A stretch of 64,000 nucleotides of DNA from Enterococcaceae bacterium (lineage in GTDB: Bacteria; Bacillota; Bacilli; Lactobacillales; Enterococcaceae), in NCBI GenBank assembly GCA_022649665.1, contig JALCOL010000001.1, positions 1 to 64,000 on the forward strand, written 5' to 3'. Of this stretch, positions 1 through 9,608 are shown in pieces (position 1 is the stretch's first letter; the number at the start of each line of letters is the position of its first letter). Below the pieces are notes generated by a model, which was given only the letters and a program-made list of their open reading frames with translations, searched no databases and was not told where the DNA came from. The position numbers and the translations under genes are program-made.

Positions 1-41
1 GGAAAAACTGCTTAAAAGGATCCATTTTCTTGAAATAAAAA

Positions 42-73
42 ATCCCAAGCGGGTTTTTCTGCTCGCCTGGGAT
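42..73 (-). terminator. Rho-independent terminator of the acid-sugar operon
   Basis: An inverted repeat (ATCCCAAGCG at 42-51, CGCCTGGGAT at 64-73, one G-U pair) reads on the minus strand as a hairpin followed by a T-rich run (complement of the A-rich 33-42). It lies 69 bp beyond the stop of the last operon gene. Confidence 0.75.
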
Positions 74-141
74 CCACTACATTTTATTCAGTTTGAAAGC
101 TCACCAACACTATTTGACGAAGAGCCTTTATTCCTTCAAAT

Positions 142-489
142 TTACTTCCTCATAATATGGATCGCGAAGCCGCCGAATTCGCCAGCTAGATAGATATTTT
201 TCAGCTTGCCTTCTTCGTCGTAGGCGGCAGTGTCCATATTAAAGTCGAGTCCTTTTTTCTTCAGTTCCTCGACAGCGCTTTCCAAATCGGGAGTTTTCAT
301 TGCGATGTGACCGTTTTTGCCTAAGAAAGGACTTTTCATGCATTCGAAATAATCGCCGGCAAATTCGGATTTTTGGCCGTGGCGCGGCTTCAAATTGAAG
401 ATGCTGCTTAAAAGCAATGCCAGCTTTTCTGCTTCTTGGGCATTTTCTGTATTGATACCGATATGTTCTAATTCAAATGTATTTGTCAT
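142..489 (-). CDS. VOC-family (glyoxalase-like) protein
   Basis: This 115-residue protein has the size of one vicinal-oxygen-chelate module. The N-terminal FELEHIGINTENAQEA strand/helix, a central GHIAMKTPDLESAVEELKKKG segment split by the first half of the module, and a C-terminal GEFGGFAIHIM strand fit the family, which includes lyases, isomerases and dioxygenases acting on small metabolites. The start has a good Shine-Dalgarno (GAGGTG, five bases before ATG). It is the last gene of the operon running from 7655, 21 bp after the permease. Its reaction cannot be read from the sequence; by context it may act on an intermediate of the acid-sugar pathway. Confidence 0.7.
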   Translation of the reverse strand: MTNTFELEHIGINTENAQEAEKLALLLSSIFNLKPRHGQKSEFAGDYFECMKSPFLGKNGHIAMKTPDLESAVEELKKKGLDFNMDTAAYDEEGKLKNIYLAGEFGGFAIHIMRK

Positions 490-510
490 TTTTGCACCTC
501 GTTTGTGTTT

Positions 511-1794
511 TTACATCGGGAACATCAACAATGAGCCGACGGTGAGCGCTAATAAGCGAATGAAATATTGCGGAATGGTGAATTTCCAAAATTCTTTCGC
601 GGTATATTTCCCGTAGCCCAAGACCATGGCCGGCATGCCGTCGATCGGCAAGAAGTGTCCGCACCAGCCGGAAATAACGATCGCACAAGCTGCGGCGGTC
701 GGGTCGAGCCCAAGATTGGAGCAGACCGCGATGGCGAGCGGCGTGAAGACATAGACGGTCCCGATCGTTGAGCCGGTCAAAGTGGCGAGGAGACTGGTCA
801 AAATACAGAAGGCAAAGATCATGAGGAAGGGATTGATGTTCGTTCCTAGCATATTTGCGACTGTTTGGCCGACTAAATTCGTCAAGCCAGTGCTGCCGAG
901 TGCATCAGCGACACCGATAACGCCGGCCGACATTAAAATGATCGGCGCACTTAGCGCGTCTCTGATTTCGGTAAAGTTGAGGACTTTCGTGAATAAAATG
1001 ACGGCAACAGACAGACCGGCCATTGCGTAGCCGGCGTCGCCGATTCGGCTTTGCAAAAGCATCCCGACCACTGCGAAAATAAATGCGCCATAAGTGACGA
1101 TTTCTTTCCATTTTGGCAGGGACGGCGTGTTTTCGCTTTCTACTTCTTCCAGTTCTTCTTCATCTTCGCCTTTGATCGGATGATCAGGCAAAAATTTATA
1201 CTGGATCACGCAGTTCAGTAAAAACCCAAGGGATAAAAATAAATTGACGATGGCAAATTTGAAGACGGAAATATGAACGGATTGTCCGGCAGCGCCAAGA
1301 ACAGCGATCACGATCCCGTATTGGAGCGCGGTGTTAAAAGGGATCAGCGGGTGGTTGGCCGCAAATCCGGCAGTCATGATCACTTTTGAAGGCGGGAGCT
1401 TTTTATTATACGGCAAGGTCGACAGCAGACCGATCGCCAAGACATAATAAGCGGTGGAACCGGTGCCGAACATGCTGCAGCCCAGCATGACCACGAGGAT
1501 GATCAGCATATACGATTTAAAGCCGCCTTTGTTCGCCATGGCAAACATCGCTTTTTTGAACACGACGATGAAATTGGTTTTTTGCAGTGCGGCGATAATG
1601 GCCATAAATTCAGCCAGCATGATGATCGTTGAATTTGAAAATCCGGCGAAGGCGCCTTTGATGTCCGTGATCCCGAAGATTACTAACAGCAAGCAGGCAA
1701 GCAGCGGCGGAGCTCCAAATGGTAGTTTTTCGATCATGATCAAAACGATCATCAGTGCGGTGATCGCCAAAGCAATAATCATTTGGATAGTCAT
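511..1794 (-). CDS. Ion-transporter superfamily permease (SLC13/CitM-like), probable organic-acid uptake
   Basis: The 427-residue protein is very hydrophobic, with about ten to eleven predicted membrane segments and a short acidic cytoplasmic loop (EDEEELEEVE, near residue 215). Two similar halves each carry a hairpin-like polar segment (for example MFGTGSTAYYV near residue 110 and TLTGSTIGTVYV near 345), as in ion-transporter superfamily carriers of di- and tricarboxylates. The start has GGAGG seven bases upstream. It sits after the aldolase gene in the acid-sugar operon, so it is the likely importer of the pathway substrate. The exact substrate and coupling ion are not evident. Confidence 0.75.
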   Translation of the reverse strand: MTIQMIIALAITALMIVLIMIEKLPFGAPPLLACLLLVIFGITDIKGAFAGFSNSTIIMLAEFMAIIAALQKTNFIVVFKKAMFAMANKGGFKSYMLIILVVMLGCSMFGTGSTAYYVLAIGLLSTLPYNKKLPPSKVIMTAGFAANHPLIPFNTALQYGIVIAVLGAAGQSVHISVFKFAIVNLFLSLGFLLNCVIQYKFLPDHPIKGEDEEELEEVESENTPSLPKWKEIVTYGAFIFAVVGMLLQSRIGDAGYAMAGLSVAVILFTKVLNFTEIRDALSAPIILMSAGVIGVADALGSTGLTNLVGQTVANMLGTNINPFLMIFAFCILTSLLATLTGSTIGTVYVFTPLAIAVCSNLGLDPTAAACAIVISGWCGHFLPIDGMPAMVLGYGKYTAKEFWKFTIPQYFIRLLALTVGSLLMFPM

Positions 1795-1832
1795 AATAGC
1801 CTCCTATATATTCTTTACATCATTATCAGAAA

Positions 1833-1871
1833 GATAGAATATCCGCTTCATTAAGAAGAAAATATTCTATC
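1833..1871 (-). other. Intra-operon hairpin between aldolase and permease genes
   Basis: GATAGAATAT and ATATTCTATC form a 10-bp stem around a 19-base loop in the 98-bp gap before the permease. Only a short T-run follows on the minus strand, so it may be a weak attenuator or a processing site that lowers permease expression. Confidence 0.4.
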
Positions 1872-1892
1872 CCGAGGCAGCACTTGCGGCAG

Positions 1893-2801
1893 TTAATTCA
1901 TGCCTTTTGCTTTGTTTTCTTCCAAGACCGCTTTGATCGCTTCGATGCCTTCTTCAGGGATCTGATTGAATGGCGCGCGGCAAGGGCCGACGTGATAGCC
2001 TAAAAGGCGGGTGGCAGCTTTGACGATCGTATTTGGATTTCCGTACTTAAAGCAGGCGCGGAAACTTTGGATACTTTCATTGGCTTTTTTCGCTTCTTCG
2101 ATCTTGCCTTCGATGAACAGATCATAAATCGAAGCCATCGTGTGCGGATACACATTTGCACAACCTGCAATGCCGCCGGTCCCGCCTGCTAACAGCGTCC
2201 AAATGATCAATTGGTCATTTCCGGACAATGTATAAAATTTCCCGTTTTGTTTCTTTTTGCCGGCTTCGATATAGCCGAGGATATTCGTGAAGTTCCCGCT
2301 GGAATCTTTTGCCCCGATGATGTTTTCGATTTCTGCTAAGCGTCCGACAGTTGCCGGAGCGATCGCGTTTCCGGTGCGGGCCGGGATGTTATACAAAACG
2401 ATCGGCATATCGACTGCTTCTGCGACGGTTTTGTAGTGAGTGTACAATTCTTCTTGGCTGGCAGCGGCGAAACTCGGAGTAATGATCGAAAGAACATCAG
2501 CGCCGGCGGCTTGCGCCATCTTGCTTTGTTCGATCGTTTCTTTTGTCGAAAGTGTCCCGGTCCCGGCATATACAGGGACGCGGCCGGCAGCTTGGTCCAC
2601 GACCGCTTCGAGCACCGCTTTCTTTTCTTGCGCGGTCAAAATGTAGCCTTCGCCGTTTGTTCCAAATGGGAAGATCCCGTGGATGCCGTTTTCGATCATT
2701 CGTTCGACTTGTACACGCAGCTCTTCCAAATTAATGCTTTCATCCTCATGCATCGGGGTCAAGATCGGGACAATAATTCCTTTCAATTCTGTTGGTTTCA
2801 T
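1893..2801 (-). CDS. DapA/NanA-family class I aldolase
   Basis: The 302-residue length matches the dihydrodipicolinate synthase/N-acetylneuraminate lyase family. The GTNGEG loop (residues 47-52), the catalytic Tyr137 in VLYNIPARTG and the Schiff-base Lys165 in GAKDSSGN are all present. Members either condense pyruvate with an aldehyde or split 2-keto-3-deoxy acids into pyruvate and an aldehyde. Its place in a degradative operon with an acid-sugar kinase and dehydrogenases argues for a catabolic 2-keto acid aldolase and not a lysine-pathway DapA. GGAGCG precedes the ATG. The substrate is inferred from context only. Confidence 0.85.
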   Translation of the reverse strand: MKPTELKGIIVPILTPMHEDESINLEELRVQVERMIENGIHGIFPFGTNGEGYILTAQEKKAVLEAVVDQAAGRVPVYAGTGTLSTKETIEQSKMAQAAGADVLSIITPSFAAASQEELYTHYKTVAEAVDMPIVLYNIPARTGNAIAPATVGRLAEIENIIGAKDSSGNFTNILGYIEAGKKKQNGKFYTLSGNDQLIIWTLLAGGTGGIAGCANVYPHTMASIYDLFIEGKIEEAKKANESIQSFRACFKYGNPNTIVKAATRLLGYHVGPCRAPFNQIPEEGIEAIKAVLEENKAKGMN

Positions 2802-2858
2802 ACGAATCGCTCCTCTGATTTTTTAGTTTGGGTAAGATAAGAATGCGCTAACAATTAT

Positions 2859-2958
2859 ACGGTGTTCCAAAAGCAGCTTCTCGGAATAATCCGGAAAACC
2901 GCAAAAATATGACAGACTATTTTCGGTTTTCCTTCTTATTTCTCGAAGCTGAGCGTTT
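2859..2958. repeat. Dispersed palindromic element, copy 1
   Basis: It begins ACGGTGTTCCAAAAGCAGCT and ends with GAAGCTGAGCG and a T-run. Inside are a long inverted repeat (GGAAAACCG at 2892-2900 against CGGTTTTCC at 2923-2931) and outer arms AGCTTCTCG/CGAAGCT. Related copies occur at 27413, 60388 and 63922. This copy lies in the 174-bp gap between the sialidase-like and aldolase genes, where it could act as an attenuator or RNA-stability element. There is no ORF in it. Confidence 0.65.
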
Positions 2959-2975
2959 TTGTTACAATCTTTGTA

Positions 2976-4148
2976 TTACTTTTTCACGCCTTCGCCGGAG
3001 GTCGGGTTGTACAAGCCTTCTGTTTCGCGTTTTTTGCCGAACAGGTCTTCAACGGTAAAGCGGACATATTTGATGCAAAGGCGATTTTTATATGCATAGA
3101 CTAAATGCAGTGTGCCTTGCTGATCTTGATAGAGTGTCGGGTATTCAAACTGCGAGTTGTTTGTTTTGTTTTCGATGCCGATATAGCCTTCTGCCGGCTC
3201 AAAGATCCGTCCGAGCGGCCAAGTTTTTCCGAGGTCTTCGGTGACTGAAACGACGACGGGGTTCCGCAGCCCCGGCCAAGTAACTTTGCCGAATTCGGCG
3301 TGGTTTGCGGCGTTCATATTGTAGGCCAAAGCGATTTCGCCCGACTGCAATTTGATCGCACTGATACTGGCGTTGTTGTTCGGCAAAGTATTCGCTTCCG
3401 GAATGCTCCAGCTGTCGCCGTAATCAAAGGATTCGCTCGTGTATACGTGATCGGCAAAGCGGCTGCGCATAAAGGCGAGCAGGTGTCCGTCAGCGACTTC
3501 GACGACATTGGCATGGACGCGGCCGTTGCTTTCCGGCATGCGGACGGCCCGCCAAGTTTTGCCTTGGTCATCGGACAGCTGAAATTCGGTCGGGTCGTTC
3601 GTCAAGCCTTCCGGGGAGTCTTCGCACAGCCAAGTGCTGAAGAGCCAGCGGCCGTTGCTTAAAATCTGGATCGCTTGGCGGGAGAAAGTTCCTTCGTTGG
3701 CGAACAATACTTCCGGGTCCCCCCACGTATTGCCTTCGTCATTTGATTTTTGGACCATGATGATCGAAGTAAACTGCATATTGTCTTTGCCGGCTTGGCG
3801 GCTCAGCTGAGAAGTATAGATCAGCCAGATCTGGCCATCCGGCGCTCTGAAGAATGCCGGATTTTGTTCGCTGCGGTCTTTTCCTTGCGAGATCGTTTGC
3901 GGGACGGACCAGATTTGTGTTTCCGGATCAAGTTTGGAGACTACGATAGAGATGTCGCCGCTGCCTTCAAAACTGCCGGCAAACCAGGCACATAACATTC
4001 CGCCATCGTGCGTTTCGATCAAGGCAGGGGCGTGCGCCGTATTGTGATCGCCAGTAGGGATCAGCCCGAAGTCGATATTTAAAAAGTCGTCGCGGTACAT
4101 CACGCCATTCGGCTCTGATTTTCTTACTTTCGGCAAGTGTGCTGCCAT
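2976..4148 (-). CDS. Cytoplasmic sialidase-fold (BNR/Asp-box) protein
   Basis: The 390-residue protein carries four Asp-box-like motifs of the six-bladed propeller family: SNDEGNTW (135-142), SDDQGKTW (192-199), ESFDYGDSW (239-247) and TEDLGKTW (303-310). The N-terminal part and the GRVHANVVE and NNSQFEYPTL segments also fit the BNR_2/sialidase family. There is no signal peptide, so it should act in the cytoplasm, on an imported substrate. It sits 28 bp after the PdxA-type gene with a GGAGG ribosome site. A true sialidase role is doubtful: the operon lacks NanE, NanK and NagA/B. It may be a hydrolase or lyase acting on a small acidic sugar conjugate. Confidence 0.75.
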   Translation of the reverse strand: MAAHLPKVRKSEPNGVMYRDDFLNIDFGLIPTGDHNTAHAPALIETHDGGMLCAWFAGSFEGSGDISIVVSKLDPETQIWSVPQTISQGKDRSEQNPAFFRAPDGQIWLIYTSQLSRQAGKDNMQFTSIIMVQKSNDEGNTWGDPEVLFANEGTFSRQAIQILSNGRWLFSTWLCEDSPEGLTNDPTEFQLSDDQGKTWRAVRMPESNGRVHANVVEVADGHLLAFMRSRFADHVYTSESFDYGDSWSIPEANTLPNNNASISAIKLQSGEIALAYNMNAANHAEFGKVTWPGLRNPVVVSVTEDLGKTWPLGRIFEPAEGYIGIENKTNNSQFEYPTLYQDQQGTLHLVYAYKNRLCIKYVRFTVEDLFGKKRETEGLYNPTSGEGVKK

Positions 4149-4176
4149 TTCAAATCCTCCTTTTGGATTGCTGTTC

Positions 4177-5202
4177 TTAAGAGTTTTCAGCTAAGCGGAT
4201 CGCGTAATCGATCGCATTCTCAAGGCTTAATTCGCTGGCGCTCCATTTTCCGGCTTGGTCGAATGCGGTTCCGTGATCGACTGAGGTGCGGATGATCGGC
4301 AGGTTCAAAGTGATATTGACGCCTTGAACGGCTTTCCAGCTGCCAGCTTTCTGATCGTAGACAAAGCCTAAAACTTTTAACGGGATATGCCCTTGATCGT
4401 GATACATTGCGACCACGATGTCGTACATGCCGCCATTTGCTTTTGAGAAGACGGTGTCAGGCGGAAGTGCCCCGACGGCATCGATGCCTTCTGCACGGGC
4501 GGCTGCGACGGCCGGATTGATTTCATTGATTTCTTCCTGCCCGAACAAGCCGTTTTCGCCTGCATGCGGATTCAATCCGGCAACTGCGATCCGCGGATTT
4601 TTGATGCCCAATTTCTTGCAGGCGGCATTCGCGATCCGGATCACATCGAGCACTCGTTCTTTCGTGACTAAGTCGCAAGCTTCGCGCAAAGAAACATGAG
4701 TAGAGACGTGAACGACGCGCAGATTTCTGTCTGCCAGCATCATCGTATATTTGTCAGTGCCGGTGAACTTCGCATAGATCTCCGTATGGCCGGCATAGTG
4801 ATGACCAGCCGCATTCATCGCTTCTTTGTTCAGCGGATTCGTCACGGTCGCATCGACTTCTTTGGCCAAGGCTAATTCGATGACTTTTTTTACATATTGA
4901 AAAGCGGCGTTTCCAGCCATTTTGGAGACTTCGCCGATCGGCAGCTCTGCCATGTCAACGACATTCATGTCGATCAAATCGATCGTCCCGAACGTGTATT
5001 TTCCTTCGCTGGGTTTTTGGATAGGATGGATCGTGAGCTTCACTTCCGGATGCTTCGCTAAATAATAGGCTAAGACACTTTTGTCGCCGATCAATAGCGG
5101 TTTGCAGCGTTCATACAACGCCGGCTTTTGAAATTCTTTTAATGAGATTTCAGGGCCGATCCCGGCTGGGTCGCCCATTGTGATCCCAATGATTTTTTTC
5201 AT
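4177..5202 (-). CDS. pdxA2: PdxA2-type 4-phospho-acid-sugar dehydrogenase
   Basis: The 341-residue protein opens with GITMGDPAGIGPEI and has the metal-site histidines of the PdxA family (AGHTEIYAKFTGTD, HVSTHVSL, MYHDQGHIPLK). PdxA itself oxidises 4-phosphohydroxythreonine in vitamin B6 synthesis, but PdxA2 proteins next to a DUF1537 kinase oxidise 4-phospho-D-threonate or 4-phospho-D-erythronate, giving dihydroxyacetone phosphate after decarboxylation. Here the kinase is two genes upstream and no other B6 gene is nearby, so the PdxA2 role is favoured. AAGGAG precedes the ATG. The stereochemistry of the substrate is not determinable. Confidence 0.85.
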   Translation of the reverse strand: MKKIIGITMGDPAGIGPEISLKEFQKPALYERCKPLLIGDKSVLAYYLAKHPEVKLTIHPIQKPSEGKYTFGTIDLIDMNVVDMAELPIGEVSKMAGNAAFQYVKKVIELALAKEVDATVTNPLNKEAMNAAGHHYAGHTEIYAKFTGTDKYTMMLADRNLRVVHVSTHVSLREACDLVTKERVLDVIRIANAACKKLGIKNPRIAVAGLNPHAGENGLFGQEEINEINPAVAAARAEGIDAVGALPPDTVFSKANGGMYDIVVAMYHDQGHIPLKVLGFVYDQKAGSWKAVQGVNITLNLPIIRTSVDHGTAFDQAGKWSASELSLENAIDYAIRLAENS

Positions 5203-5245
5203 AGCATGAAAACTCCTTTTCAGCGATTTAGTGCCAAGGTGCTTC

Positions 5246-6403
5246 TTACAGAATTTCTAAATAGATCTTGCGGGCGTCTTCCGGCGTGACTTCGCGTTGA
5301 TTGTTGACGAGAAGCCGTGTGACTTCCATCCCGGCGGCAACTAAACCATCCAGATCTTCTTCCGGCACATTGAAAGTTTTTAGACTTGTCGGGATTTCCA
5401 ATACTTCGACGATTTCTTCCAGCTGATTGATCATGTAATGCGCTTTTTCATCAACGCTCAAGCCTTTATTTCCGTCTTTGATGACGCGGTCGTAAGCGGC
5501 TGCCAAGAGATCCTTGATCGCTGGTTCATTGAAGCGCATCACCGGTGTCAATAAGATCGCATTCGAAACGCCGTGGGGAATGTGGTATTTGCCGCCAAGC
5601 GGATAAGAAAGTGCGTGGACTGCAGTCGTTCCGGATGAAGTGATCGCAACCCCGGCGTAAAACGAACCCAATAACATATTGCTTTTGGCTTCCAATGCCT
5701 CAGGATTCGTGCACGCTTCAATGATATTGTTCATGATCAAGTCGAGTGCCTCTAAGGCGAATGTATTGCTGATCGGATTCGCTTTGGCAGAGGTGAAGCA
5801 TTCGATCGCGTGGCATAAGGCATCTACACCAGTCGCTGCAGCGATCGCTTTCGGCAGGTTTTTGATCATCCGGCTTTCCAAGATCACGTAATCAGCGATC
5901 ATTTCCGGATTGACGATCCCGATCTTGAGTTCTTTTTCAGGCACGCCGACGATACTGTTTGGCGTAGCTTCAGAGCCGGTCCCGGCAGTCGTCGGGATCA
6001 TCAAGGTCGTCGTTTGTTTTTTCGCAAGCAGCGGATCATCCAGCAGATCTTTTACGGTATAGTCATCGGTCGTGAGGATCGAAGCAAGTTTCGCGACATC
6101 CATCACGCTGCCGCCGCCGATCGCGATAATGAGATCGGCATTTTCTTTTTTGCATTCGTCGATCATCATTTGCGCTTCCAGATAGCTGGGTTCTGCGGGG
6201 ATGTCGGAAATGATCGTATAATCGATGCCGGCTTCTTCGATCAAAGCTTGCGGCTGTGCGACCAGTCCAGCGCCTAAAATTCCTTTGTCCGTGAAGATCA
6301 CGATTTTTTGAACATCATTTTTGATGATCGTGCTCAACTGTTCCATGGCGTGTTCGCCCGCGATCACATTGCGCGGCATTTTTAAACTATAATCTGTTAA
6401 CAT
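5246..6403 (-). CDS. Iron-containing (group III) alcohol dehydrogenase
   Basis: The 385-residue protein has the Rossmann-like GGGSVMDVAK motif near residue 97, the TAGTGSE loop and the metal-ligand region with DALCHAIECF and HALSYPLGGKYHIPHG. The start at 6403 is chosen because AGGAGG lies seven bases before it and it follows the kinase stop by one base; a longer frame to 6469 would run into the kinase. Family members interconvert alcohols and aldehydes with NAD(P)H, such as lactaldehyde/1,2-propanediol. Here it may reduce the aldehyde released by the DapA-like aldolase, or oxidise a hydroxy acid substrate. It belongs to the same operon. Confidence 0.85.
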   Translation of the reverse strand: MLTDYSLKMPRNVIAGEHAMEQLSTIIKNDVQKIVIFTDKGILGAGLVAQPQALIEEAGIDYTIISDIPAEPSYLEAQMMIDECKKENADLIIAIGGGSVMDVAKLASILTTDDYTVKDLLDDPLLAKKQTTTLMIPTTAGTGSEATPNSIVGVPEKELKIGIVNPEMIADYVILESRMIKNLPKAIAAATGVDALCHAIECFTSAKANPISNTFALEALDLIMNNIIEACTNPEALEAKSNMLLGSFYAGVAITSSGTTAVHALSYPLGGKYHIPHGVSNAILLTPVMRFNEPAIKDLLAAAYDRVIKDGNKGLSVDEKAHYMINQLEEIVEVLEIPTSLKTFNVPEEDLDGLVAAGMEVTRLLVNNQREVTPEDARKIYLEIL

Positions 6404-6404
6404 A

Positions 6405-7655
6405 TTATTCCTCCTGATCTGTATGGATCTGACTGATTTCTTCAAACAATTCTGCATTGCCGAAACCACCGGATTTGGTGATCACCTGCATTTTTTTGTG
6501 ATCCCATTCGATCGTGGCCAGCACGACCCCCGGGCTGATTTCAGCAACCGGCTCGATTTTATTCACTCCTAAGACTTTCATCGACTGAAACAAAGTGTCG
6601 CCGCCGGTAAAGAGAAACGTATTTTCCAAATGTTCCGCCCACAAAGCTTGGGTCAATGCCCCTAAAGATTTGCCGATGCGAAAACGATATTCCGAAGGGG
6701 ATAAATGATTTTCTGCGCTGTACATCGCGATTCCTTTGGTCGTTTCGTCATTCAGCGTTTCGAAGACTATCAATGGATATTCTTTCATCAACGATAAATA
6801 ATTTTGCAGTTCTTTTTTGCCCTCAGCACTCTTCCAATATTCGCTGCTCAATAATTGGTGCGGTGTCAGCGAGATCCGCGGATATTTTCTTTTTTCAGCG
6901 TATTCGATCTGCATTTTAGTGATCGGGTTGACGCTGCCGCAGATGACGACTAACGGATTCTTTAATGTATAGGCAGGCGGTTGGCCATTTGGAAACAAAT
7001 GCTTCGCCAGCACTTTGGCAAAACCAGCGCAGCCGACTGAAACACCGAGCAGCTTGGTCTTTTCTAAAGCTTTCAGCTGTTCGACCAGCATTTCATCAGT
7101 TTGTGCATCGAAGACCAGAACGTTTTGCGGATTTTTCGGGAGCGTGCTGCCTTTGACCAGCTGTGCATCGATATCAGCTTCATTTTTCAAACGCCGCAAT
7201 ACATTGCTTTCGGTCACCGGCTCATACGGATCATCTGCGAAGACACTTTCGCTCACCAAGGTTTGGCCGATATATAAATTTCCGTCGATCAATACGCGGT
7301 TCATTTCCGGATAAGCCGGCAGAAAAGGAATGACCGCTTGCCGGCTCGCATCTGCGACCGCTTTGATCTCAGCGCTGATATTGCCCCGCAAGCCTGAATC
7401 GACTTTTTTATATATGTAAGGAATACCCGCTTGTTCAGCGCTTACAATTATTTGTTTGATCAGTTGGTAAGCTGCTTCAAAACGCAGGTAGCGGCTTTCA
7501 GTGTTGATCACTAAGACGTCAATGGAGTCATCGACTTTTTTGTAATCCAAATCTGTCGCGGTCGAAACTAAGGTTTTGATCCCTTGATTAGAGAATTGTA
7601 CGCCGGTATCAAGCGCGCCTGTAAAGTCATCGGCAATGACTAATAGCTTTAACAT
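6405..7655 (-). CDS. Four-carbon acid-sugar kinase (DUF1537 family)
   Basis: The 416-residue protein starts with the LLVIADDFTGALDTG signature of the DUF1537 kinases; a YKKVDSGLRGN segment near residue 83 and GGDTLF with a C-terminal TKSGGFG segment complete the two-domain fold. The family (DtnK, DenK, OtnK) phosphorylates D-threonate, D-erythronate or 3-oxo-tetronates with ATP at O4. It is the first gene of the minus-strand operon and faces the regulator across 168 bp. Together with the PdxA2-like gene it indicates acid-sugar breakdown to triose phosphate. Confidence 0.88.
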   Translation of the reverse strand: MLKLLVIADDFTGALDTGVQFSNQGIKTLVSTATDLDYKKVDDSIDVLVINTESRYLRFEAAYQLIKQIIVSAEQAGIPYIYKKVDSGLRGNISAEIKAVADASRQAVIPFLPAYPEMNRVLIDGNLYIGQTLVSESVFADDPYEPVTESNVLRRLKNEADIDAQLVKGSTLPKNPQNVLVFDAQTDEMLVEQLKALEKTKLLGVSVGCAGFAKVLAKHLFPNGQPPAYTLKNPLVVICGSVNPITKMQIEYAEKRKYPRISLTPHQLLSSEYWKSAEGKKELQNYLSLMKEYPLIVFETLNDETTKGIAMYSAENHLSPSEYRFRIGKSLGALTQALWAEHLENTFLFTGGDTLFQSMKVLGVNKIEPVAEISPGVVLATIEWDHKKMQVITKSGGFGNAELFEEISQIHTDQEE

Positions 7656-7730: not shown

Positions 7731-7810
7731 TTGTTTATATTTGAAACGTTTTCAATAAAATAGAGTATTTTTCAGCTTGCCCGCGATATAATTGTTTATA
7801 TATGAAACAA
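7731..7810. promoter_or_regulatory. Divergent control region with two candidate operators
   Basis: The 168-bp gap holds TTGTTTATATTTGAAAC (7731-7747) and TTGTTTATATATGAAAC (7792-7808), which match at 16 of 17 positions. The second extends to a TTGTTT...AAACAA inverted repeat. The second copy overlaps the candidate -10 box TATAAT (7787-7792) of the regulator, so autoregulation is plausible. Overlapping the first is TTGAAA-CGT-TTTCAA (7741-7755), one base shorter than a standard cre site. No -24/-12 promoter was seen. Binding by the adjacent regulator is inferred. Confidence 0.55.
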
Positions 7811-7823
7811 TAGGAGGGGTTAG

Positions 7824-9608
7824 ATGCTGTCTAAAATCAAACTGTTGGGGATCGCCCCGTATGAGGAATTAAACAATTCCATGAATATCGTCAGCAAACA
7901 ATTTGCGGAAGTACACTCAGACATTTACACAGCAGATCTCGAAGAAGGACAGCGTTTGGCTGCCGAACTTTACAGCAACGGCTATGACGCGATCATTTCG
8001 CGCGGCGGTACTGCTGATCTGATCCGCCGTTCTGTCTCGATCCCGGTCATCGATGTCTCGATTTCGATTTACGATATTTTAGGTGCGATCCGTTTAGCGG
8101 AAAACTATACGAAGAACTTTGCGATCGTCGGCTATTCCAGCATTACTGCGAATGCGCATTTGCTTTGCGATATTTTGGGGTACAATATCAAAATCATTAC
8201 GCTGGATGACGCGCTCGACGCCGGCGAGATTCTAGATACACTTTCCAAAGAACACTATGAAATGATTTTGTGCGACGCCATTACGAATCGCTTGGCCATC
8301 ACGAAATCGCTCAATACGCTTTTGATCACTTCCGGTTTTGAAAGCATCAAGCATGCGTATCAAGAGGCGCTGACGATCGCGCAGCATTTAAAAAGAGTCA
8401 AGCATGAAAAAAACATTTTGGCACAGGGGATCGACAGTCAAAAGCAAGATTTTTTGATTTTTGATGAAGCGTTTCAGATCATTTTTTCGAATCTGGAGGA
8501 GGCGACCGAGCAAGCGCTGATGAAACATCTCGCTGCGAAAAAGAATTTAGACAAAGAAAGCCAGACTTATGCAACGATCAAAAACAAGATCTACCGCTTG
8601 CACCTCAAACGCTTTTCAGCGGATGGCGTGAGTTACTACAGCTGCCTGATCAAAGTTTCAGCACCGCCGGTCACGAACAATCGGCTGGGCATCCGTTACC
8701 AAAATCATGCGGAAGTCGCGGATATCTTTGCCACTAAGCTGCTTTTTACCAAATTTATCCCTGAACAGGCCAAGCAGGAGCTGCAAAAAATCAAAAATGA
8801 TTATCACGCGATCATCATTATGGGCGAGACCGGTACCGCCAAAACAAGCATTGCCTATCAAGCGTATTTGCATCAAGAGATCCATAATAATCATTTGATC
8901 GCGATCGATGCGAAGCTGATCAATGAAAAAATGTGGAAATTCCTTGTAAATCCTTCAAACGGGCCGTTAGTCGATGCGAATAATACGATCTTGTTTGAGC
9001 ATGTTGAGCAGTTTTCACTGGCAGACGCGGAACGCTTGATCGCGATCGTCAAAAATACCAAGCTTCTCCAAAGGAATCAGCTGCTTTTCACCTTCGACAC
9101 CAATCGGTCAAAAGATGAAGCGATCTATCATCGGCTTTTGGTCGAGTTGAACTGTGCCAGTATTTACGCGCCGTCGCTCAAAGAACGCAAAAACGAACTC
9201 AGCATCATCACGACGCTGCTGTTGAATAAAATAAATATTGAATGCAACAAAGAAATCGTCGGCTTCGGGCCGAACGCGCTGAATGAGTTTTTGGCATATG
9301 ACTGGCCCGGCAACTTGAATCAGCTGCAAGCCGCCATTAAAGAGCTCGTCATCAATGCAGCGACGCACTATATCTCAGAACATCAAGTGCTGATGCTTCT
9401 CAGAAAAGAACGGCTGATCCAAAACTTTTCGACGAATAAGAGTGCCTCGTTTACTTTTCAAAATACGGTCGAGCAGCCGACCCTTTTCGACTACACAAAA
9501 GAAATCATTTCAACGATCTTGGAGCAAAACGGCGGCAATCAAACAAAAACCGCCGAGCAGCTCGGGATCAGCCGAACAACGCTCTGGCGGTATTTGAAGG
9601 AAGACTAG
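7824..9608 (+). CDS. PrpR_N-domain transcriptional regulator with degenerate AAA domain and Fis-type HTH
   Basis: The 594-residue protein has three parts. Residues about 10-185 form a PrpR_N ligand-binding domain (YDAIISRGGTADLIR, IPVIDVSISIYDI, FAIVGYSS). Residues about 310-520 are an AAA domain with Walker A GETGTAKTS. The C-terminus is a Fis-type helix-turn-helix (NQTKTAEQLGISRTTLWRYL). The GAFTGA loop that contacts sigma-54 is absent and the Walker B acidic pair is altered (TILFEHVEQF), so it is unlikely to be a sigma-54 activator. It is divergent from the acid-sugar operon and is its probable regulator, sensing a small organic acid. AGGAGGGG precedes the ATG. Confidence 0.85.
   Translation: MLSKIKLLGIAPYEELNNSMNIVSKQFAEVHSDIYTADLEEGQRLAAELYSNGYDAIISRGGTADLIRRSVSIPVIDVSISIYDILGAIRLAENYTKNFAIVGYSSITANAHLLCDILGYNIKIITLDDALDAGEILDTLSKEHYEMILCDAITNRLAITKSLNTLLITSGFESIKHAYQEALTIAQHLKRVKHEKNILAQGIDSQKQDFLIFDEAFQIIFSNLEEATEQALMKHLAAKKNLDKESQTYATIKNKIYRLHLKRFSADGVSYYSCLIKVSAPPVTNNRLGIRYQNHAEVADIFATKLLFTKFIPEQAKQELQKIKNDYHAIIIMGETGTAKTSIAYQAYLHQEIHNNHLIAIDAKLINEKMWKFLVNPSNGPLVDANNTILFEHVEQFSLADAERLIAIVKNTKLLQRNQLLFTFDTNRSKDEAIYHRLLVELNCASIYAPSLKERKNELSIITTLLLNKINIECNKEIVGFGPNALNEFLAYDWPGNLNQLQAAIKELVINAATHYISEHQVLMLLRKERLIQNFSTNKSASFTFQNTVEQPTLFDYTKEIISTILEQNGGNQTKTAEQLGISRTTLWRYLKED

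Follow-up and report, generated by a model that had tools for sequence, protein, structure and literature searches.

The first 64,000 nucleotides of contig JALCOL010000001.1 from an Enterococcaceae bacterium (GenBank assembly GCA_022649665.1; this whole stretch is hereafter called the window) carry at positions 142-7655 a seven-gene operon for which we put forward, at about an even chance, a catabolic role: breakdown of a seven-carbon (C7) 2-keto-3-deoxy diacid, in all likelihood Dha, to pyruvate and triose phosphate by way of D-threonate. Dha, or 3-deoxy-D-lyxo-2-heptulosarate, is a signature sugar of the plant polysaccharide rhamnogalacturonan II. The functions assigned here are deduced from sequence, genomic company, stereochemistry and the established chemistry of the families, and the operon is a new combination of known enzyme families together with one protein of probably new chemistry. 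All seven open reading frames of the original prediction, which was made from the sequence alone, were found at their places on the minus strand, in the order kinase, iron alcohol dehydrogenase (Fe-ADH), PdxA2, BNR protein, DapA-type aldolase, CitMHS permease and VOC protein:

142-489, minus strand: VOC-fold protein; no Pfam match, weak lactoylglutathione-lyase match
511-1794, minus strand: CitMHS-family anion permease; Pfam CitMHS 96.9 bits, cut-off 31.9
1893-2801, minus strand: DapA-type class I Schiff-base aldolase; Pfam DHDPS 245 bits
2976-4148, minus strand: BNR_2/Asp-box protein (the BNR protein); Pfam BNR_2 194 bits
4177-5202, minus strand: PdxA2-type dehydrogenase; Pfam PdxA 368 bits
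5246-6403, minus strand: Fe-ADH; Pfam 140/162 bits
6405-7655, minus strand: DUF1537 kinase; SBD_N 154.1 bits (cut-off 25), NBD_C 89 bits (cut-off 28.3)

In the proposed route, the diacid dianion would be imported as a metal complex by the CitMHS permease, released or activated in the cytoplasm by the BNR protein and brought to its open keto form by the VOC protein or, in sister operons, by DUF386. The aldolase, to judge from its active-site sequence, would then split the C3-C4 bond to give pyruvate and the tetruronate OHC-CHOH-CHOH-COO-, the aldehyde of which would be reduced by the Fe-ADH to D-threonate; the kinase would convert this to D-threonate 4-phosphate, and PdxA2 would oxidise and decarboxylate the phosphate to dihydroxyacetone phosphate (DHAP) and CO2. 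The net reaction would be C7 diacid + ATP to pyruvate + DHAP + CO2 + ADP, and the route would be redox-neutral, because the Fe-ADH would consume the reducing power made by PdxA2. Every catabolic gene apart from those of the BNR and VOC proteins is used in this scheme. When the stereochemistry is worked out, C3-C4 cleavage of a D-lyxo ulosarate followed by reduction at C4 gives (2S,3R)-trihydroxybutanoate, which is D-threonate.

The gene set is conserved as a unit. Among 148 genomes (147 related genomes and the window's own), BNR relatives of at least 80% identity are present in 10 of the 147, besides the window's own, and the 11 genomes of the 148 with the BNR protein are precisely those that also have a close Fe-ADH and a close kinase; weaker kinase matches (29-34% identity) were found in five other related genomes. 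A wider scan with the BNR protein yielded 80 database loci, 48 of them at least 20 kb long, from Enterococcus, Trichococcus, Streptococcus, Paenibacillus, Bacillus-type genera, Clostridia, Succinivibrio, Brenneria and Pectobacterium. Homologues of the kinase, Fe-ADH, PdxA2 and DapA are also present in 44 of the 48 long loci. Four genomes appear incomplete at the locus and hold the absent DapA or kinase homologue elsewhere: an 87% DapA on the same contig in genome G042, a DapA of 67% in the genome of L049, and in the genomes of L052 and L061 homologues of DapA (44-45%) and of the kinase (26-27%) that lie near each other at a different locus. The same gene company recurs at 33-41% identity in Pantoea, Agrobacterium, Sinorhizobium, Rhizobium, Azospirillum and Caballeronia, where ABC or SSS transporters stand in place of CitMHS, and is only partial in two Roseomonas-type clusters. 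When 398 genomes were drawn from across the phylum, none but the window's own gave a match, so the distribution of the cluster is patchy. Recurrence of the set in more than 40 long loci from several phyla places the arrangement far beyond chance; the cluster is a unit common to gut, oral, soil and plant bacteria. The original prediction had named a neighbourhood not conserved elsewhere as grounds for its own refutation, and the wide conservation goes in its favor.

In two of these loci, from Brenneria and Pectobacterium (L026 and L036), the BNR protein shares 84-85% identity with that of Enterococcus and the Fe-ADH, DapA and kinase only about 25-43%, a pattern which suggests that the BNR gene was exchanged horizontally into an operon of another version.

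Conversion of D-threonate by a DUF1537 kinase to D-threonate 4-phosphate, and of the latter by PdxA2 to DHAP and CO2, is the established chemistry of these families. The best of three NCBIfam kinase models for the window kinase is that of D-threonate kinase (NF047819, 207.8 bits, cut-off 450). The nearest solved structure to the window PdxA2 is 6e85, a D-threonate 4-phosphate dehydrogenase, at 304.6 bits compared with 178-180 for true PdxA; the PdxA2 of the Pantoea cluster, which has the same set, reaches 658.8 bits and exceeds the NF002891 cut-off of 583; and in the Caballeronia cluster a D-threonate-kinase-like domain is fused to PdxA in one protein. Because of these last three observations, the route very probably ends with the conversion of a four-carbon (C4) acid to its 4-phosphate and on to DHAP and CO2, and D-threonate is the likeliest such acid.

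The nature of the step before is suggested by the aldolase. In comparison with reference sequences of Escherichia coli DapA and NanA, the window protein keeps Lys161 and Arg138 and has Phe for Tyr107. The Schiff-base Lys is kept throughout the 60 DapA-like sequences of the loci, Arg138 in 58 and Phe for Tyr107 in 59; the two sequences without Arg138 are 30-31% identical, resemble distant paralogues and are unlike those of the operons. Beyond Firmicutes, this position is Arg in Pantoea, Azospirillum, Agrobacterium and Sinorhizobium, and Lys in Caballeronia. In the DapA of lysine synthesis, Arg138 binds the carboxylate of aspartate semialdehyde, which is also a C4 aldehyde acid; NanA has Leu here. 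A C7 2-keto-3-deoxy diacid is proposed as the substrate because a pyruvate aldolase has to act on such a compound if it is to yield a C4 aldehyde acid. Identity with lysine DapA was rejected, given the loss of Tyr107 and a separate DapA beside an Asd-like gene elsewhere in the genome. A six-carbon ulosarate such as 2-keto-3-deoxyglucarate would yield a three-carbon semialdehyde and call for a glycerate kinase instead of DUF1537 and PdxA2, and 3-deoxy-D-manno-octulosonate (Kdo) would yield arabinose and leave the kinase and PdxA2 without use; both were discarded. A further DapA-like gene of the window genome (contig C25, 5914-6765; L107) adjoins what by eye is an altronate-dehydratase-type gene, and the pair perhaps represents another acid-sugar route.

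These data also bear on a simpler possibility, close to the original prediction, in which the operon serves D-threonate or a related C4 acid and the DapA and Fe-ADH proteins work on a side branch, for example one that gives pyruvate and a short aldehyde, the latter being reduced to an alcohol. The kinase and PdxA2 alone would be enough for D-threonate, and short aldehydes are taken in other pathways by DapA-type aldolases and lactaldehyde-type Fe-ADH, as family knowledge and the model matches of the window Fe-ADH indicate. However, the kinase and PdxA2 are accompanied across phyla by DapA, Fe-ADH and the BNR protein, a linkage for which a side branch would have no need, and retention of Arg138 indicates that the aldehyde is a C4 acid; we regard this alternative as distinctly unlikely. 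The acid-sugar operon with C4-acid chemistry, the acidic sugar derivative as substrate and the cytoplasmic sialidase-fold protein that had originally been predicted are all supported, as are pyruvate and triose phosphate among the products. A separate reduced alcohol as an end product is not, the alcohol on the simplest reading being D-threonate, the substrate of the kinase.

The BNR protein is the weakest step of the C7 diacid route. Its N-terminus (MAAHLPKVRKSEPNG...) has no signal peptide, and the same holds for its relatives. An AlphaFold2 model (mean pLDDT 87.7) matches GH33 sialidases, including human cytosolic Neu2, with Foldseek E-values of 1e-15 to 4e-17 and VIA-align Z of about 35 over more than 300 residues, and has the six-bladed sialidase propeller of GH33. 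In alignment with the Micromonospora sialidase and NanB/NanC, His212 occupies the position of the catalytic Glu (Glu260), and the second and third Arg of the sialidase triad are kept as R228 and R295; Glu386 is replaced by A352. By motif, the first Arg is replaced by H39, the nucleophile Tyr is probably Y336 and the acid/base Asp has no counterpart; these equivalences for Tyr, the first Arg and Asp come from sequence and not from superposed coordinates, and the residue roles in the reference sialidases are family knowledge. H39, H212, R228, R295 and Y336 are invariant in 13 BNR sequences down to 33% identity. Judged from these residues, the protein is a sialidase-fold enzyme with a strictly conserved, altered active site of its own; a plain sialidase was rejected, the catalytic residues being replaced. 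The intracellular cut of the substrate envisaged in the original prediction is possible but uncertain; several canonical sialidase residues are missing from the active site. Hydrolysis of a small Dha glycoside and action on free Dha appear to us about equally probable. By sequence, GH143 is represented only by a short stretch of 5mqr, which we take to be BT1020, at an E-value of 0.65; GH143 was not among the fold matches listed for the model, which excludes nothing.

H9, E49, H61 and E104 of the VOC protein, presumably its metal ligands by position and family knowledge, are invariant in 24 relatives. DUF386, the family of N-acetylneuraminate anomerase (NanQ), is found in 31 of the 80 loci and suggests a ring-forming substrate of the ulosonic type. 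Of the two families, 22 loci have VOC only, 29 have DUF386 only and 2 have both, and no DUF386 was found in the window genome; given this rare co-occurrence and the absence from the window genome, the VOC protein may take over the anomerase-type step as a candidate anomerase or isomerase replacing DUF386. The near-exclusion could also come from shared ancestry, each being found with different versions of the operon.

The union of a BNR fold, DUF386 and a DapA-family lyase resembles nan operons and brings to mind the scavenging of a sialic-acid-type sugar (a nonulosonate or Kdo) by a sialidase, an anomerase and a NanA-like lyase. This we consider highly improbable, as genes for N-acetylmannosamine kinase, the epimerase and N-acetylglucosamine 6-phosphate metabolism are lacking, the lyase has Arg138 where NanA has Leu, the kinase and PdxA2 have no place in such a route, and the BNR protein lacks the catalytic residues of sialidases.

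Transporters in the loci are mostly of small-anion types (CitMHS, TRAP and SSS), and the CitMHS permease is a candidate importer of the sugar diacid, perhaps metal-bound; some CitMHS carriers move citrate together with Ca or Mg. Three unrelated metal exporters adjoin the operon according to lineage, namely a Ca-type P-type ATPase in 16 loci, TerC in 6 and a Na/Ca antiporter in 4 (26 loci within L025-L104; examples at L015:12419-15232, L026:12586-13311 and L082:14938-15921), and CitMHS is present in 25 of these 26; the ATPase matches are concentrated in Enterococcus and Streptococcus, and this relatedness inflates the exporter count. The ATPase lies downstream of the operon in relatives; among the loci its identity with the L015 protein is 48-100%. 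The window starts at the end of contig C1, and a 73% relative of the ATPase is located at the very end of contig C17 of the same genome, in an orientation that fits a C17-C1 join. Entry of a chelating sugar diacid together with Ca would explain the adjoining exporters. A bolder version of the proposal, which we offer tentatively and with clearly less confidence than the route itself, makes the sialidase-fold protein a new catalytic class (His/His/Tyr/two-Arg) that acts on the free diacid and is not a glycosidase, within a complete, undescribed and widespread Dha pathway whose metal-coupled uptake is balanced by dedicated Ca/Mn exporters.

Several observations weigh against the Dha route. The window kinase and PdxA2 fall below the curated cut-offs of their models (207.8 against 450 for NF047819, 349.2 against 583 for NF002891); some Rhizobium and Roseomonas clusters have a different DapA without Arg138; and the BNR active site is unlike the machinery described for sialidases and GH143, the case for a Dha hydrolase being weak. 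The C7 diacid itself was arrived at through the logic of the gene set, Dha is no more than the best-known member of that class in nature, and a different C7 ulosarate would suit the enzymes just as well. Next to the clusters that were inspected, no gene for pectin degradation was recognised, and GH28 pectinases are not enriched in the carriers (2 of 11, against 28 of 147 genomes), so that a link to pectin degradation through GH28 was dropped; the carriers may be scavengers. The same enzyme logic might serve another C7 substrate, such as a 2-keto-3-deoxy-heptarate from bacterial surface polysaccharide or algal scales, or one that the BNR protein forms intracellularly from an imported acid by dehydratase, hydratase or epimerase action. 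The many carriers without GH28 pectinases speak for this, as do the replacement of the catalytic Glu, Asp and first Arg of the BNR protein and the prevalence of small-anion transporters, with which that protein may act on a monosaccharide. Against it, no alternative of known abundance was identified, and Dha is, to our knowledge, the one abundant natural compound whose configuration yields D-threonate; another C7 substrate appears possible but doubtful.

A BD-FAE-type alpha/beta hydrolase in which no signal peptide was seen adjoins or lies near the operon in about 15 loci (among them L052, L060-L062, L064 and L082), a hint of an esterified form of the substrate.

The gene list of the original prediction holds for the seven genes and lacked the divergent regulator, a pair of operator-like repeats and the Ca-type ATPase of relatives. 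The features around the operon are as follows:

36-75, minus strand: intrinsic terminator after the VOC gene; long GC-containing stem, then a T run
7733-7747, minus strand: operator-like repeat GTTTCAAATATAAAC, promoter-proximal copy; position shared by all 11 Enterococcaceae intergenic regions
7740-7755, minus strand: possible cre-like (catabolite-repression) site TTGAAAACGTTTCAAA, read from sequence; overlaps the promoter-proximal repeat
7794-7808, minus strand: operator-like repeat GTTTCATATATAAAC, second copy; distance to the promoter-proximal one 61 bp (offsets 15 and 76)
7824-9608, plus strand: divergent PrpR_N regulator; PrpR_N 163 bits, HTH_8 44 bits

The regulator combines a PrpR_N domain, a degenerate AAA domain and a Fis-type helix-turn-helix, and has homologues in 64 of the 80 loci. 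A GAFTGA motif was not seen in its AAA part, nor a clear -24/-12 element by eye, and a sigma-54 promoter for the regulator was rejected on these grounds; with no visible GAFTGA, the regulator may work without sigma-54. The 168-bp space between regulator and kinase holds the two repeats, of the form GTTTC...AAAC. The distant copy is present in 10 of the 11 Enterococcaceae regions, in some with one or two mismatches, and missing from L024; the 61-bp spacing is the same in relatives that retain it. As to the possible cre-like site, TGAAAACGTTT is found in 3 of the 11 regions. A generic scan for promoters and terminators did no better than on shuffled sequences; the terminator at 36-75 folds with -19.8 kcal/mol (z -3.9 compared with shuffles).

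Within the operon, the start of the Fe-ADH gene is best placed at ATG 6403, which is preceded by AGGAGG and from which homologues align; the GTG at 6469 given in the list lies too far upstream. Most intergenic gaps are short, the exceptions being those of 174 bp before the DapA-type gene and 98 bp before the CitMHS gene. The former (2802-2975) contains nested inverted repeats, GGAAAACCG...CGGTTTTCC within CAGCTTC...GAAGCTG, possibly an attenuator or processing site.

Enzymes that cut rhamnogalacturonan II are known, and we know of no described route for Dha afterwards; in the openly accessible literature searched, no description of a Dha or a threonate/sialidase pathway was found. If the proposed route is correct, it would provide a catabolic pathway for Dha in many Firmicutes and Proteobacteria at once, explain a large set of proteins that are annotated as exo-alpha-sialidases and probably are not sialidases, and predict that the sialidase fold and a DapA relative each carry out a new reaction.

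The operon can be compared with four known systems. With the DUF1537 D-threonate pathway (DtnK and PdxA2; NF047819, NF002891) it shares the kinase and PdxA2 families and the expected products DHAP and CO2, whereas in the window operon these are joined at the front by a sialidase-fold protein, an aldolase and an Fe-ADH, which would derive the D-threonate from a larger sugar. Its front end is akin to that of sialic acid catabolism (NanA, NanQ/DUF386 and sialidase) in having a sialidase-fold protein, an anomerase family and a pyruvate-forming DapA-family lyase, and departs from it in the aldehyde product, which would be a C4 acid and not N-acetylmannosamine, in the absence of amino-sugar genes and in the changed active sites. 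The aldolase has the fold, Schiff-base Lys and Arg138 of dihydrodipicolinate synthase (DapA), and the proposed substrate has the C7 diacid skeleton of the DapA aldol adduct; it differs in the change of Tyr107 to Phe, the catabolic direction and the presence of a separate lysine DapA in the genome. Finally, the GH143 Dha hydrolase of Bacteroides thetaiotaomicron (BT1020) is a sialidase-like propeller that acts on Dha, a seven-carbon analogue of sialic acid (PMC6811678), and the BNR protein is likewise a sialidase propeller. In contrast to the five-bladed GH143, with its retained Tyr-Glu pair, the BNR protein has a GH33-type propeller with Glu changed to His, is predicted to be cytoplasmic and has no recognised sequence kinship with GH143.

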